Source: Actinomycetota bacterium (GTDB taxonomy: Bacteria; Actinomycetota; Geothermincolia; Geothermincolales; RBG-13-55-18). From it: a DNA stretch of 55,641 bases. Below the pieces are notes generated by a model. It saw only the letters and a program-made list of their open reading frames with translations, searched no databases and had not been told where the DNA came from. Below are positions 12,160 through 41,365 of this stretch, one piece after another. The position numbers and the translations under genes are program-made. Within the stretch, counting starts at the first letter, position 1. Each line of letters begins with the position of its first letter. The stretch is from positions 95,709 to 151,349 of the forward strand of contig JASEFK010000007.1 in the NCBI GenBank assembly GCA_030019255.1, read 5' to 3'.

Positions 12160-12200
12160 GCGGACACCTCTTCGTCCTCCGACGAGTTACTCACAACATT

Positions 12201-12226
12201 ATGCCTAATTATGCATAATTTTGCAT
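12201..12226 (-). promoter_or_regulatory. Double ArgR operator upstream of argC
   Basis: Two 16-bp near-palindromes share one half-site. The plus-strand sequences are ATGCCTAATTATGCAT (12201-12216) and ATGCATAATTTTGCAT (12211-12226). Each differs at one position from the perfect palindrome ATGCATAATTATGCAT, and they are offset by 10 bp, one helical turn. They resemble actinobacterial ARG boxes of the TTGCATA/ATGCAA type. The pair covers the -10 box and most of the spacer of the argC promoter, so bound ArgR hexamer should block RNA polymerase. Confidence 0.85.
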
Positions 12227-12235
12227 TTCTGTCAA
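12208..12235 (-). promoter_or_regulatory. argC operon promoter
   Basis: On the minus strand TTGACA (12230-12235) and CATAAT (12208-12213) are separated by 16 bp, a near-consensus housekeeping promoter. Transcription should start near 12201, about 40 nt before the argC ATG. Confidence 0.8.
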
Positions 12236-35409: not shown

Positions 35410-36564
35410 ATGGACGAACTCTGCAGGATGGCCCGGAAACTGGTACCGCCCCGGCTCCGGGAATGGAAGGAAGGTGGCGGGCAAGTGGTGGGATATACCT
35501 GCGTGGCCACGCCGCGGGAGATCTTCGACGCCGCGGGTATATTGCCCTACCGCCTGCGCGCCCTGGGGAAACCGGAGCGCGACCACGCTGACGCCTACCT
35601 CTCCCGCTTCAACTGCGGGTTCTGCCGCGCCTGCCTTCAGCTGGCCCTGGAGGGAGCCTATGATTTTCTGGACGGGCTGGTGGAGACCAACGGATGCGAC
35701 CACCTGCGGGGGATGTTCGAGAACTGGAGCCGCACCACGAACCCCGGGTTCTTCCACTATCTCAAGGTTCCCCACCTGGTGACCGAGGAATCGCTGGAAT
35801 TCTTCGCCGAGGAGCTGGAGCTCCTCCGGGAATCACTTGCCAACTATTTCCAGGTAGATATCGGCGACTCCGCCCTCTCCGAGGCGGTGCGGGCGGCCAA
35901 CCGGCGCCGCGAGAGGATGCGCGAGCTGTTCTCCCTGCGGGAGAGGGAGAACCCGGCCCTCACCGGAAAGGAGGCGCTGGCCGCCCTCCTCCTGGAGTCC
36001 TCCCTGCCCCCGGCGGCGTTCGATGCCCTCCTGGAACAACTCCTGGAGGAGGTCCAGGGAAGGGAGATCCGCGGCTACCGAGCCCGGCTCCTCCTCGCCG
36101 GGAGCGCCACCGACGAGCCGGAGCTGGTAGGGGAGATCGAGGACCTGGGGGGCCTGGTGGTCACCGACGCCCTCTGCTACGGGACCCGTACCTTCTGGAA
36201 GCTTCCGGAGGTGGAAGGGGAGCCCATCCCCGCCCTCGCGGAGGCCTACCTGCGGCACCTGCTGTGTCCCCGCATGTTCGACGATTACCCTTCCCGGCTG
36301 GAGTTCATCCTCCGGGCGGCGGAGAGGGCCAGGGTGGACGGCGCCGTGCTGGTGTACAACAAGTTCTGCGACCTGCACGGGGTAGAGAACGTGCGCCTGC
36401 GCCTGGACCTGGAGGAACGCGGTATCCCGGTCCTGGTCCTGGAGAAGGAATACGGTTCCCCCGCCGACCTGGGACGGATACGCACCCGGGTGCAGGCCTT
36501 CCTGGAGCGCATCTCCGGCCGGAGAGGCTCCGGGGTGGCCGCTTTGCCGACGGGCGGCGTCTGA
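35410..36564 (+). CDS. 2-hydroxyacyl-CoA dehydratase/benzoyl-CoA reductase-type subunit (HgdB/BcrC/BzdN-like)
   Basis: A 384-residue Fe-S protein of the 2-hydroxyacyl-CoA dehydratase D-component family. VVGYTCVATPREIFDAAGILPYRLR is the family's N-terminal signature. Candidate cluster ligands include C31, C69, C72, C75 and C96 (CGFCRAC, then NGCDH) and a later cysteine in NKFCDLHG. Family members use ATP-driven one-electron reduction to dehydrate 2-hydroxyacyl-CoA or to dearomatise benzoyl-CoA. Length is close to BcrC (about 383). It starts with GAGGGGGAG upstream of the ATG and is followed 18 nt later by the second subunit. Confidence 0.85.
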   Translation: MDELCRMARKLVPPRLREWKEGGGQVVGYTCVATPREIFDAAGILPYRLRALGKPERDHADAYLSRFNCGFCRACLQLALEGAYDFLDGLVETNGCDHLRGMFENWSRTTNPGFFHYLKVPHLVTEESLEFFAEELELLRESLANYFQVDIGDSALSEAVRAANRRRERMRELFSLRERENPALTGKEALAALLLESSLPPAAFDALLEQLLEEVQGREIRGYRARLLLAGSATDEPELVGEIEDLGGLVVTDALCYGTRTFWKLPEVEGEPIPALAEAYLRHLLCPRMFDDYPSRLEFILRAAERARVDGAVLVYNKFCDLHGVENVRLRLDLEERGIPVLVLEKEYGSPADLGRIRTRVQAFLERISGRRGSGVAALPTGGV

Positions 36565-36582: not shown

Positions 36583-37983
36583 ATGGCCGCACGGGGTTTG
36601 GATATCGGCGACGGGCTCTTCCGCAGGGTGGAGGAGCTTATCGAGGTGGCCATGGATCTTCCCAGGGGGATGAGCGACCAGGAGGTGGAGGGCCTGCTCC
36701 ACCTGCTTCCCCCGGATACCTCGCGCTCCATGCGCGCCCTCCTCTCCCCCCGCTTCCGCGAGGTGAGCCTGGACTTCATAACCATGATCGGGGGCTGGAT
36801 ACGCGAGGCCCGGCGGGCCCGGGAGGAGGGGCGCAAGGTGATCCTGGTCCCCTTCAACTTCCCCCCCGAGATAATCTACCTCTTCCGGAATGCCGTTCCC
36901 CTCACCAGCGAGGTGCTCACCACCCTGGGAGTCTCCGTGCTGGAGGGGCAGGGGGAGCGTTACTGGGACTACGCCATGGGCCTGGGGATACCCGATTTCC
37001 TCTGCTCCTCGTCCACCATCGAGCTGGGATCCGTCCTCACCGGCCGGGACTTCGAGCCGGACATCATCGTCCAGTCCGCCCCCGGCGCCTGCGACGCCAA
37101 CTCCAAGATCCACGAGTTCGTCTCCCTGCACATGGGCATACCGCAGGTGATCCTGGAGAAACCCACCGAGACCGGGCCGCGGGGGAGGAAGCTCCACCGG
37201 CGCTACTTCCTGGGCTTCCTCCGCCGCCTGGAGGAGATGATCGGTGAGGAGCTGGACGAGGAGCGCATGCGCGAGGTGCTGGAGGAGGCCAACCGCGCCG
37301 CGGAGCTCTACTACGAGCTGTACGACTTGAAAAAATTCTCTCCCTGCCCGGTGCCCAACATCTTCTCCCTCTTCACCTACGGGACCCGCTTCACCCGCTG
37401 GGGCCGCCCGGAGGGAACGGAGATGATGCGCGCCATGGTGAACCTTTCCAGGAAGCGCCTGGAGGCCGGGGAGTACCCCGCCTCGGAGGAGGTAGCCCGC
37501 TGTATATGGCTTTATATCGGGTACTACTTCGACTTCCTAGGCTTCTTCAACTGGATGGAGGAGCGGGGCATAACCTACCTGAACGACGTCCTCTCCCTGT
37601 GCCAGCCCCGCTTCGTGGACACCTCCTCCCGGGAGAGCATGCTTGAGGGCCTGGCGGAAACCTGCTTCGAGTATCCCATGACCAGGCAGATGGGGTCCTC
37701 CTCCATGTCCCTTACCTGGATAGAGGACATGTGTGGGTTCATCCGTGACCTGCGCGCCGACTGCGCCATCTACTCCGGGCACCACGCCTGCAAGCAGACC
37801 TGGAGCGTCATCAACCAGGTGCGCCAGGAGATAATGAAGCGCACCGGGGCCCCCGTCCTCTGCCTGCAGGGAGATTCCTGGATCCGGCGTATGACCCCCA
37901 CCAGCGTGCTCCAGGAGGAGATAGAATCCTTCGTGGCCAACGTGGTCCGCAGGCGTAGCCGCCGGGCAGGGAGGAGTGCATGA
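36583..37983 (+). CDS. 2-hydroxyacyl-CoA dehydratase/benzoyl-CoA reductase-type subunit (HgdA/BcrB/BzdO-like)
   Basis: A 466-residue partner subunit of the same fold. Typical segments are VPFNFPPEIIYLFRNAVPLTSEVL (N-domain), PGACDANSK, and HHACKQTWSVINQVRQEI near the C-terminus, where the Cys is a probable cluster ligand. PCPVPN, LCQPRF and DMCGFIRD give further cysteines. The length is nearer to BcrB/BzdO (about 440-450) than is usual for the smaller dehydratase subunit. GGAGGGGTGAG precedes the ATG. It ends about 90 bp before a separate promoter for the activase operon. Confidence 0.82.
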   Translation: MAARGLDIGDGLFRRVEELIEVAMDLPRGMSDQEVEGLLHLLPPDTSRSMRALLSPRFREVSLDFITMIGGWIREARRAREEGRKVILVPFNFPPEIIYLFRNAVPLTSEVLTTLGVSVLEGQGERYWDYAMGLGIPDFLCSSSTIELGSVLTGRDFEPDIIVQSAPGACDANSKIHEFVSLHMGIPQVILEKPTETGPRGRKLHRRYFLGFLRRLEEMIGEELDEERMREVLEEANRAAELYYELYDLKKFSPCPVPNIFSLFTYGTRFTRWGRPEGTEMMRAMVNLSRKRLEAGEYPASEEVARCIWLYIGYYFDFLGFFNWMEERGITYLNDVLSLCQPRFVDTSSRESMLEGLAETCFEYPMTRQMGSSSMSLTWIEDMCGFIRDLRADCAIYSGHHACKQTWSVINQVRQEIMKRTGAPVLCLQGDSWIRRMTPTSVLQEEIESFVANVVRRRSRRAGRSA

Positions 37984-38073: not shown

Positions 38074-38102
38074 TTGACAGAAAATGACCGCGGTCATATC
38101 AT
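38074..38102 (+). promoter_or_regulatory. Near-consensus promoter with palindromic operator in the spacer (activase operon)
   Basis: TTGACA (38074-38079), 17 bp, TATCAT (38097-38102). The perfect 14-bp palindrome ATGACCGCGGTCAT (38084-38097) fills most of the spacer and touches the -10, a classic place for a repressor. Transcription should start near 38109, giving a leader of about 200 nt. Confidence 0.8.
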
Positions 38103-38134
38103 ACAACCGCCCCGTAAAGATCCGGCTGCATTCG

Positions 38135-38211
38135 CGGGGAGGAGGCTCGGATGAGCCACCCATCGCACCTTCCCCAATTCGCGATGGCTCATCCTGCCTC
38201 CTGAATCCCCG
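38135..38211 (+). ncRNA. Long hairpin in the 5' leader of the activase operon
   Basis: Nested pairings: CGGGGA (38135-38140) with TCCCCG (38206-38211), GGAGGC (38141-38146) with GCCTCC (38196-38201), GGATGAGCC (38149-38157) with GGCTCATCC (38186-38194), and ATCGC (38162-38166) with GCGAT (38181-38185). About 26 pairs with small bulges. There is no T-tract after it, so it is not a simple terminator. It could be an mRNA-stability or cis-regulatory element; no known riboswitch is recognised. Confidence 0.6.
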
Positions 38212-38312
38212 GAGACGGATGGGATAAAATTGAAGGTGGGGACATAAAGAAGCAGGCCAGGACCTTGTGCACGGACCCAGGGGACCGGCAAGTCGGCAGA
38301 GGGAGGTGAGAC

Positions 38313-39104
38313 ATGCGCTTCGGGGGTATCGACGTGGGCTCCCTCACCGCCCAGGCGGTGATCATGGAGGACGGAAAGATCGCCGGCTTCCGGAGCATAA
38401 GGGTGAAGCCCAACCCGGTGGAATCGGCGGAGACGGTGATGGGGGAGCTCCTCTCCGAGCTGGGCCTCCGTCCCGGGGACATCGACTTCACGGTGAGCAC
38501 CGGGTACGGCAGGGAGCAGGTGCAGGCCCGCGGCCTGGCCCAGGCCAACGTGAGCGAGATCTCCTGCCACGGCACGGGCGCCCTGTGGCTCCTCCCCGGG
38601 GTGCGCACCATCATCGACATCGGGGGCCAGGACGCCAAGGTCATCCGCATGGAGCCCACGGGAGAGCTCAAGGATTTCGTCATGAACGACAAGTGCGCGG
38701 CGGGAACCGGTCGCTTCCTGGAGGTCATGTGCCGCACCCTGGGCATTACCCTGGACGAGCTGGGCACCCTGTCCCTCAAGTCCCGGCACCCGGTGGACCT
38801 CTCCAGCCGCTGCAGCATCTTCTGCGAGACGGAGGTCCTGCACTACATGCAGCGGGGCGTGGACAAGGCGGACATCGCCGCAAGCGTCAACCGGGCCATG
38901 GCCGAGCGGGTGGCCGCCCTGGCCCGACGGGTGGGGGTGGAACCTGAGGTGACCATGTCCGGCGGGGTGGCCAAGAACGCCGCGGTGAAGGCGGAACTGG
39001 AGCGCATCCTGGGAGTGAGGATGGTGCCCTGCCCGGTGGATCCCCAGATCGTGGGGGCGCTGGGCGCCGCCATCCTCGCCCGTCGCATGGGAGGGACGAG
39101 ATGA
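38313..39104 (+). CDS. ATP-dependent dehydratase/reductase activase 1 (ASKHA family)
   Basis: A 263-residue HgdC/BcrA/BadF-type activase: an ATPase dimer with one [4Fe-4S] cluster that injects an electron into the dehydratase or reductase. GIDVGSLTAQAV (5-16), STGYGR, DIGGQDAKVI (102-111), NDKCAAGTG (125-133) and MSGGVAKNAAV form the ASKHA motifs. C128 and C167 (SSRCSIF) match the cluster ligands C127 and C166 of Acidaminococcus HgdC. GGGAGGTGAG precedes the ATG. First gene of the operon; overlaps activase 2 by 4 nt. Confidence 0.93.
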   Translation: MRFGGIDVGSLTAQAVIMEDGKIAGFRSIRVKPNPVESAETVMGELLSELGLRPGDIDFTVSTGYGREQVQARGLAQANVSEISCHGTGALWLLPGVRTIIDIGGQDAKVIRMEPTGELKDFVMNDKCAAGTGRFLEVMCRTLGITLDELGTLSLKSRHPVDLSSRCSIFCETEVLHYMQRGVDKADIAASVNRAMAERVAALARRVGVEPEVTMSGGVAKNAAVKAELERILGVRMVPCPVDPQIVGALGAAILARRMGGTR

Positions 39105-39871
39105 AGGCGCTGGGTTGCGACATCGGGAGCCTCTTCTCCAAGGCGGTGGTCATGGACGGCGAGACCCTGCTCGCCTGGAAGATAATGGAGACCACCGGCA
39201 ACATCGCCGGGGAAGTGGACGGGCTCATCGAGGAGGTGTGCCGCGAGGCGGGGGTGAGCCGCCACAACCTGGACGGCATGGTGACCACGGGAAGCGGAGC
39301 CGAGTTCCTCAAGGAGGCCGACTTCCTGGAGGACGAGGTGGCCTGCATCGGCTGGGCAGCGCGTTGCCTCCTTCCCGAGGTGGACCTGGTGGTGGACATC
39401 GGGGGACAGAGCATCACCTCCATGCTCCTGGACCCGGAGGGCGAGGTCGTAGACTTCATGCGCAACGACAAGTGTGCCTCGGGCTCCGGCCGCTTCCTGG
39501 AGGTCATGGCCGCGGCCCTGGGCATCCCCGTGGAGCGCATCGACGAGGAGGCCTCGCGGGCCGCGAAGCGCGTCCCCATAAGCTCCCAGTGCGGTGTCTT
39601 CGTGGAGAGCGAGGTCATCACCCACGTCAACAACGGGGAATCACCCCAGGACATCGTGGCCGGCCTGTGCGACGCCGTGGCTCGCATCGTCACCTCCCAG
39701 GCCCGCCGCTTCGGGGGCGGCAACCGCTACACCTTCACCGGCGGCGTGGCCAGGGTACACACCGTGGTGGACCTGGTGCGTGAGCGCATGGAGGGAGAAT
39801 TCCAACCCTTCCCCCTGGACCCCATGCTGGCCGCGGCGGTGGGCGCCGCCCTGCTGGTGGAAGCGAGCTGA
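39101..39871 (+). CDS. ATP-dependent dehydratase/reductase activase 2 (ASKHA family)
   Basis: A 256-residue paralogue of the preceding gene. GCDIGSLFSKAVVM (5-18), DIGGQSITSMLL (99-110), NDKCASGSG (122-130) and TGGVARVHTV keep the ASKHA core; cluster cysteines C125 and C164 are present. It is clearly diverged: DIGGQS replaces DIGGQD, and the final motif lacks the Lys-Asn of copy 1. Two non-identical adjacent activases suggest a heterodimer, as in benzoyl-CoA reductase (BcrA/D, BzdP/Q), whereas dehydratases use one activase homodimer. Confidence 0.92.
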   Translation: MKALGCDIGSLFSKAVVMDGETLLAWKIMETTGNIAGEVDGLIEEVCREAGVSRHNLDGMVTTGSGAEFLKEADFLEDEVACIGWAARCLLPEVDLVVDIGGQSITSMLLDPEGEVVDFMRNDKCASGSGRFLEVMAAALGIPVERIDEEASRAAKRVPISSQCGVFVESEVITHVNNGESPQDIVAGLCDAVARIVTSQARRFGGGNRYTFTGGVARVHTVVDLVRERMEGEFQPFPLDPMLAAAVGAALLVEAS

Positions 39872-39872
39872 G

Positions 39873-40607
39873 TTGGGACTCTTCGAGGAACCCCTGAAGG
39901 ACATCCGGCGCTACCTGGAGGAAAAGCGCTCCCTGGGAAAAGCGAGGGAGTTCTCCTATACCCCCGTGCTTCCCCGGGCCTCCTCCCCCCAGGTCATCCT
40001 GAGCGAGGACACCGGCCTGGAGCTGGGAAGCCCAGGCACGTCCTCCCGTTCCCTCCTTCTCTGGGACGACTCCGGAGCCGTGGCGGACGGGAGGATAACC
40101 CTGGTGGGACCGGACTTCCCGGAGATCGGCGGCGGAAGGGCGCCCCTGGCCCAGGTGGTCATGGTGGGCGGCCGCTTCAGCGACGAGTACGACTGTTACC
40201 GCGACCTACGTGACGCCACCTACAACCTCGGCCTGCTCGGCTTCATGACCCGCGTCCTCCCCGGGAGACAGAGCGTGTGGTGCCGCATCAGCCGGGAAGC
40301 CATGGCCCGGGGCTTCAACGCCCAGGTGCTGGGGAGCGCCCTCATCCAAGCGGTGAAGAGCCTGGACTTCGTGGACGCCGCGGAGGTGCTCCTGGTAACC
40401 TCCTCCCCGGAGGACATCGAGGAACTGTCCGGCGCCGCCGACCTGGTCCAGGAGATCGTGGAGGCGCTGATCAAGATGTACGAGGAGATGAACTTCGACT
40501 GCGACACCTGCGAGTACGTGGAGGTCTGCGACAGCGTGGTCGAGCTGCGGCGCATCCGCGAGCGCCTGCAGGCGGAACGGGGCGGTGGGGAGGTCGATCC
40601 CGGGTGA
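39873..40607 (+). CDS. Stand-alone protein resembling acetyl-CoA synthase (AcsB/CdhC) C-terminal domain
   Basis: A 244-residue protein starting at TTG 39873, 1 nt after the activase 2 stop. By eye it follows an acetyl-CoA synthase beta-subunit domain: LELGSPG near 49-55 for the ELGGP segment, DGRITLVGPDFPEI (72-85) for DGxVxxIGPDI, PLAQVVMVGGRFSDEYD (91-107), and VWCRISREAMARGF (135-148) for WxRISKxAxxKG. The C-terminus has C210, C213 and C219 (DCDTCEYVEVC), a possible metal site that differs from the CLCQ..C A-cluster site. It lacks the CO-tunnel-interacting N-domain, so it cannot be a full acetyl-CoA synthase. Role unknown; an electron or metal-cofactor partner is inferred from the CooC-like neighbour. 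Confidence 0.6.
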   Translation: MGLFEEPLKDIRRYLEEKRSLGKAREFSYTPVLPRASSPQVILSEDTGLELGSPGTSSRSLLLWDDSGAVADGRITLVGPDFPEIGGGRAPLAQVVMVGGRFSDEYDCYRDLRDATYNLGLLGFMTRVLPGRQSVWCRISREAMARGFNAQVLGSALIQAVKSLDFVDAAEVLLVTSSPEDIEELSGAADLVQEIVEALIKMYEEMNFDCDTCEYVEVCDSVVELRRIRERLQAERGGGEVDPG

Positions 40608-41365
40608 ACCAGAGGACGGTGGTGGCCGTCTGCGGCAAGGGCGGGGTGGGCAAGACCACCGTGGCCGCCCTTCTGGCCAGGCTCCTCCGGGAGGACGGCC
40701 GGCGCCGCGTCCTGGTGGTGGACGCCGACCCGGCCGTGGGACTGGGCATGGCCCTGCGCATCTTCCCGCCCAGGACGGTCAACGACGTGCGCAAGGAGAT
40801 CATCTCCACGGTGCGGGAGCACGCCGCCGACCAGGTGGACCTGGCGGCCTCCGTGGATTACAAGATGATGGAGATCCTGGAGGAGGAGGGCAACCTGGCC
40901 TTCCTCTCCGTGGGGCGCCCGGAGGAGGAGGGATGCTACTGCCAGCTGAACATGCTGCTGCGGGAAGCCATCGAGTTCCTCTCCTCCCACTTCGACCTCA
41001 CCCTCATCGACGCCGAGGCCGGGGTGGAACAGGTGAACCGGCGGGTGATGCGCTCCGTCTCCCACCTCCTCCTGGTCAGCGACGTAACGGCCAAAGGCAT
41101 TAAAGTGGCGGAGTCCATCCGGGAGGTCGCCGAGGAGGCCGTGGACTACCGGAAGCTGGGCCTCATCGTCAACCGGGTGAGGGACCCGGAAGAGGCCCGG
41201 GCGGTGTGTGAAAGCACTGTCCTTCCCCTGCTGGGATTCCTCCCGGAGGACGAGACGGTCCGGGAATTCGACGCCGGGGCTGAAAACTTCCTGGAAATTC
41301 CTTCCTCCCCGGCCCTCGAGGCGGCGCGCGAGTGCCTTCTCGCAAGCGGTTTTCTTTCCTCCTGA
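40604..41365 (+). CDS. CooC/AcsF-type nickel-insertion ATPase
   Basis: A 253-residue MinD-like ATPase. The deviant Walker A GKGGVGKTT is at 11-19, VVDADPAVGLG at 38-48, and the CxC metal-binding motif GCYCQLN has C111 and C113, matching C112/C114 of Carboxydothermus CooC1. CooC and AcsF load nickel into CO dehydrogenase or acetyl-CoA synthase, yet neither full enzyme is in the window. The GTG start at 40604 overlaps the upstream stop as GTGA, so it is coupled to the acetyl-CoA-synthase-like gene. It ends 15 bp before the convergent acyl-CoA ligase. Confidence 0.85.
   Translation: MNQRTVVAVCGKGGVGKTTVAALLARLLREDGRRRVLVVDADPAVGLGMALRIFPPRTVNDVRKEIISTVREHAADQVDLAASVDYKMMEILEEEGNLAFLSVGRPEEEGCYCQLNMLLREAIEFLSSHFDLTLIDAEAGVEQVNRRVMRSVSHLLLVSDVTAKGIKVAESIREVAEEAVDYRKLGLIVNRVRDPEEARAVCESTVLPLLGFLPEDETVREFDAGAENFLEIPSSPALEAARECLLASGFLSS

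Follow-up and report, generated by a model that had tools for sequence, protein, structure and literature searches.

The stretch of DNA analysed here (the window, 55,641 nucleotides) comes from a genome of the Actinomycetota whose genus-level relatives belong to Candidatus Solincola. On the + strand of the window, two neighbouring genes encode large subunits of the HGD-D type (35410–36564 and 36583–37983; both PF06050). They are followed by two activases of the BcrAD/BadFG ATPase type (38313–39104 and 39101–39871; PF01869 and TIGR00241 in each case), a CdhC-domain protein resembling the acetyl-CoA synthase beta subunit (39864–40607, start provisional; PF03598), which is conserved in 16 of 18 genomes of the order, and a CooC/MinD-like ATPase (40604–41365, with a GTG start at 40604; PF01656 CbiA and Fer4_NifH). 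An ATP-dependent activase is known to be required by those HGD-D enzymes that belong to the 2-hydroxyacyl-CoA dehydratase and benzoyl-CoA reductase families. Several further activase paralogues are present elsewhere in the window genome. Before the genes of other activase paralogues of this family, with 48–53% identity (L132, L122–L127, L129 and L130), there is a conserved extended −10-like element, (T/C)TGGTAGAAT, or a close variant of it.

A palindrome in the spacer of the activase promoter

The promoter that the first-pass annotation had placed in front of the activase operon is present as described. Read directly, the + strand sequence is TTGACA-17-TATCAT (38074–38102, here P1), with the −35 hexamer at 38074–38079, the −10 hexamer at 38097–38102 and the perfect palindrome ATGACCGCGGTCAT (38084–38097, no strand assigned; core TGACCnnGGTCA) between them. 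Within the 17-nt spacer the palindrome takes up the 3′ portion, and its final T doubles as the opening base of the −10 hexamer. The description of P1 as the best promoter in the window holds for the + strand, where its score of 11/12 is the highest; on the − strand the number of matches is equalled once, by TTGACA-16-CATAAT (12235–12208, 16-nt spacer). This − strand promoter (12200–12235) lies upstream of a run of argC-like and argJ-like genes and also holds a 14-bp palindrome, AATTATGCATAATT (12207–12220), which looks like a site of the arginine-repressor (ARG box) type.

Taken alone, a 14-bp palindrome is weak evidence and is not improbable, because the window contains eight perfect palindromes of at least 14 bp; 0.23% of its 29-mers contain one. 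What goes beyond chance is the placement of the palindrome, its single second copy in the genome and its conservation.

A second copy beside a TetR-family gene

In the 2.93 Mb of the genome (43 contigs searched), ATGACCGCGGTCAT occurs without mismatch exactly twice, both times between a −35 and a −10 hexamer at identical spacing. The other copy lies on contig 10 and is framed in the same way, as TTGACA-AAAAATGACCGCGGTCA-TAATAT. Some 180 bp 5′ of it ends a TetR-family gene (contig 10, 8903–9535; 210-residue product), and 3′ of it lies an acyl-CoA dehydrogenase gene. The suggestion that further copies be sought near a gene of the TetR, GntR or MarR type was thus borne out, with a TetR gene adjoining the only other exact copy. 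No site-like sequence was found upstream of the TetR gene itself in the window genome (the best had four mismatches), and autoregulation there was rejected on this ground.

In three genera the contig-10 operon keeps one gene order, in which the TetR gene and the operator are followed by genes for acyl-CoA dehydrogenase-family proteins, four proteins without clear family and two HGD-D proteins. In the genus of the window genome there are three acyl-CoA dehydrogenase-family proteins, and a ferredoxin-type protein comes after the HGD-D pair, which is paralogous to the pair in the window. The four conserved proteins without clear Pfam family (253, 231, 138 and 569 aa) are encoded at L005:14069–18066 on contig 10, after the acyl-CoA dehydrogenases and before the HGD-D pair. 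No activase was found in this operon at E ≤ 1e-40, the nearest on the contig being ∼20 kb further on.

Conservation of the promoter and operator

The orthologous interval, from the second HGD-D gene to activase 1, was located in three further species of the genus by gene order, independently of the motif. In each of the three, the interval contains TTGACA-17-TAATAT, and the spacer carries either ATGACCACGGTCAT or ATGACCATGGTCAT. Across the four species the activase promoters are invariant at 6/6 positions of the −35 hexamer and 12/12 positions of the palindrome arms, compared with 0/2 positions of the central dinucleotide and 3/60 of the 60 bp upstream. The region had been put forward for comparison in related genomes, with loss of the palindrome beside conserved hexamers as the pattern that would speak against an operator; that pattern was not seen in the orthologous promoters. 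Instead, all four members of the genus have the operator-promoter at both loci, and the activase copies vary only in the two central bases. In two species of a sister genus (G007 and G011) the gene order is kept across a shorter gap that lacks P1, and these genomes have neither a close TetR relative nor the site.

At the TetR locus, orthologues of 59–87% identity occur in three genera (g1, g6 and g4), each time with the site after the TetR gene and ahead of the acyl-CoA dehydrogenase gene. The site thus also accompanies the TetR orthologues of two sister genera. We also searched 31 genomes of the class with a 29-bp promoter-operator pattern, allowing three mismatches, a search that weaker sites may escape. 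It returned 21 sites in 12 of the 31 genomes, and none with a reversed control pattern. Every one of the 21 precedes or adjoins a TetR, acyl-CoA dehydrogenase or activase gene: ten at TetR-linked acyl-CoA dehydrogenase genes, five at a second acyl-CoA dehydrogenase gene, four at the activase operon, one at a TetR gene (G014) and one beside a 44% identical TetR homologue (G027). Since the pattern takes hexamers and arms as given, it is the intervals located by gene order that test conservation fairly.

The activase sites are limited to the window genus. The site and the TetR gene adjoin in ten genomes, and six of the 18 genomes of the order, those without a TetR relative of at least 49% identity, have no site. 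No site passes the 29-bp pattern in G016, where the TetR protein is 49% identical. In G014 an extra site lies upstream of its own TetR gene, in an autoregulation-like arrangement, and a 51% identical TetR paralogue is found near a promoter with the changed palindrome ATGAACGCGTTCAT at the same promoter position.

The P1 leader and a second promoter-like element

The likeness between the two loci continues past the hexamers. A downstream box, AAGATCCGGCTGCATTCGCGGGGAGG (38117–38142, + strand), is common to P1 and the TetR-linked promoter by alignment. In the window genus the box AAnGTCCGGCTGCATTCnnGGGGAGG stands ∼15–40 nt after the −10 hexamer at both promoters, and a search of four genomes of the genus matched it at these two promoters only. 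The form GTCCGGCTGCATTCnnGGGGAGG (38117–38142) is common to the activase and TetR-linked promoters in three of four species. The alignment shows no such box at the TetR-linked promoter of G001, nor in the other genera. This is most simply explained if a promoter-operator module of ∼70 bp was copied, as it probably was, in the ancestor of the genus; the TetR locus would be the source and the activase locus the recipient, since the TetR-linked site is the more widely distributed.

Further into the leader, a stem-loop without a terminator U-run is predicted on the + strand (38140–38202), with a fold z of −4.1 in the window and a weaker −1.7 in two relatives. In G003 and G001 the leader can likewise form stems from partly different sequence, e.g. 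GGAGGTCCGG/CCGGACTTCC, a hint of a conserved structure. An RNA family was rejected, as an Rfam search of the leader gave no match. A leader peptide was likewise rejected: the window has a 17-codon reading frame at 38151 (MSHPSHLPQFAMAHPAS) after GGAGGAGG, and the relatives have no ATG there.

About 100 bp downstream of P1 lies a putative proximal promoter missed in the first-pass annotation, P2 (CTGAAT-18-TAAAAT, 38201–38230, + strand), which has no operator. Its TAAAAT is found 51–88 nt before the activase start codon in all six genomes compared, from two genera, and two of the six lack the operator and P1. We read P2 as an older, operator-free promoter. Between P1 and P2 a terminator was rejected, the stem having no U-run and the sole terminator-like match there lying on the − strand, overlapping the operator. 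Nor was a + strand terminator found anywhere between the HGD-D large-subunit genes and the activases. With P2 outside the operator and conserved in six genomes, and no such terminator, basal transcription and read-through into the activase operon are likely.

The TetR-family regulator

The product of the contig-10 gene has an N-terminal helix-turn-helix domain (PF00440, E = 1.3e-20), and its predicted structure is all-helical (pLDDT 87) and matches TetR-family entries in the PDB, the top matches including KstR2, PfmR and FadR. Two traits of a TetR regulator with a cognate operator are thus present: the helix-turn-helix with an all-helical C-terminal domain and, in the promoter next to the gene, a palindrome that is conserved along with it. 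Its close relatives in the named-genome collection are all metagenome-assembled genomes of the Actinomycetota, with Candidatus Solincola and Candidatus Geothermincola among them, and the matches that rank after these are ∼33% identical.

The sequence scores below every cut-off of the curated equivalog models, so that the effector class is a guess. For FadR of the Bacillus type (NF053878) it reaches 67.8 bits, where the cut-off is 200. Acyl-CoA degradation genes are among its predicted targets, with putative sites before acyl-CoA dehydrogenase-family genes in ten genomes. The protein is therefore FadR-like in its likely role and is not filed as FadR, given the scores. In the literature searched we found no paper containing TGACCGCGGTCA and none on gene regulation in Solincola or Geothermincola.

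A proposed switch and its alternatives

Going by all the comparative evidence, the palindrome is a real operator. The proposal that it serves a dimeric repressor is strongly supported by the TetR gene beside the only other exact copy and by the conservation in relatives. We consider it very probable that the palindrome is the operator of this FadR-like TetR protein, encoded elsewhere in the genome, and that the protein represses both the activase operon and the acyl-CoA dehydrogenase/HGD-D operon. The regulon originally envisaged, the activase operon, is thus retained and was incomplete, as the same site stands before the operon on the other contig. A TetR dimer would bind TGACCnnGGTCA between the −35 and −10 hexamers and block RNA polymerase both at P1, which serves the two activases, the CdhC-like protein and the CooC-like ATPase, and at the promoter beside the TetR gene, which serves the three acyl-CoA dehydrogenases and the HGD-D pair.

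It had also been claimed that the repressor would shut off the activase operon as a whole, separately from the large subunits. The separation stands, as the operator lies before the operon and the large-subunit genes lie upstream, outside the control of P1. Full shut-off goes too far: with P2 conserved in six genomes and no + strand terminator between the HGD-D genes and the activases, binding at P1 should lower activase expression and not abolish it. A dimer bound at P1 might also impede read-through from upstream.

The likely inducer is an acyl-CoA intermediate. With the operator before the activase operon, one signal could raise both this operon and the contig-10 HGD-D operon, and induction would increase the supply of activase while the second HGD-D enzyme is being made, its operon having no activase of its own; P2 would maintain a basal activase level. 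We infer from this arrangement that the window activases may serve the remote HGD-D enzyme. Put together, these elements would make a two-target TetR switch, arisen in one genus by copying of a module, in which a single activase operon, its CdhC-like and CooC-like genes included, works for two enzymes of the HGD-D type: P2 gives a basal supply for the neighbouring enzyme and P1, induced by acyl-CoA, a supply for the remote one. We offer this fuller picture tentatively, as somewhat less than an even bet.

Several other explanations have to be weighed against repression by TetR at P1. P1 could be minor or silent, most transcription of the activase operon starting at P2 or reading through from the HGD-D genes, in which case the P1 site would matter little. 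The conservation of P2 in six genomes, its presence where P1 is absent and the lack of a + strand terminator in the gap all fit such a view, but the strong constraint on P1 and its operator in four species implies a use, and we think it unlikely. It is more doubtful still that the operator is bound by some other dimeric regulator, the TetR linkage being incidental or TetR having other sites. Linkage is no proof of binding, and the genome has many TetR-type candidates (30 at a first look); against this, the site and the TetR gene co-occur across genera and adjoin in ten genomes, and G014 has both a site preceding its TetR gene and a paralogue that goes with an altered palindrome.

Some TetR proteins activate, FasR in mycobacteria being an example, and activation or dual regulation at the site might be considered. 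However, P1 is close to consensus, and a dimer at the site, between its two hexamers, would on established knowledge be expected to exclude RNA polymerase. The sites of Thermus thermophilus FadR overlap core promoter elements likewise (PMC5597230), and we regard an activating role as improbable. A chance origin of the palindrome in a GC-rich promoter spacer might be entertained in view of the eight perfect 14-bp palindromes in the window, but it is ruled out for practical purposes by the arms conserved in four species, together with the identical placement at the second locus and the TetR linkage.

Repression by TetR at P1 is an ordinary, well-known kind of bacterial switch; what is new is the link between two gene clusters of unknown role. 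For the specialist, the interest lies in this link and in the apparent copying of a module rather than in the mechanism. The finding also offers a first regulatory handle for a cluster that is itself uncharacterised and occurs across the Geothermincolales, with its HGD-D proteins, two activases, CdhC-domain protein and CooC-like ATPase. In the window genus, expression of the cluster appears tied to acyl-CoA oxidation and a second HGD-D pair, a tie that points to CoA-thioester chemistry, not CO, as the trigger. The sharing of one activase operon by two dehydratase-like enzymes becomes testable, and the case is an example of a regulon gaining a member, probably through a copied whole promoter-operator module.

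Comparison with known systems

KstR2 and PfmR control small regulons of CoA catabolism. Both (PDB 4w97 and 3vpr) are top structural matches of the TetR model, yet they are only 22–28% identical to it and have other operators and other target genes. FadR of Thermus thermophilus and Bacillus (PDB 3whb, 3whc and 5gpa) shares with the predicted system the TetR fold, targets in acyl-CoA catabolism and a palindromic operator overlapping core promoter elements, and Bacillus FadR is among the top matches by both sequence and structure. Identity is only 22–25%, however, and the predicted targets here include HGD-D enzymes and activases. The operators differ too, the T. thermophilus consensus TTRNACYNRGTNYAA being 15 bp long (PMC5597230), in contrast to the even palindrome TGACCnnGGTCA. 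A further parallel is FadRSa of Sulfolobus acidocaldarius, a TetR repressor of an acyl-CoA degradation cluster with only four genomic sites, from which acyl-CoA releases it (PMC6449355). The predicted kind of target and the small number of genomic sites are common to both systems, whereas FadRSa acts in an archaeal promoter context, on semi-palindromic operators and with no activase target (PMC6449355).
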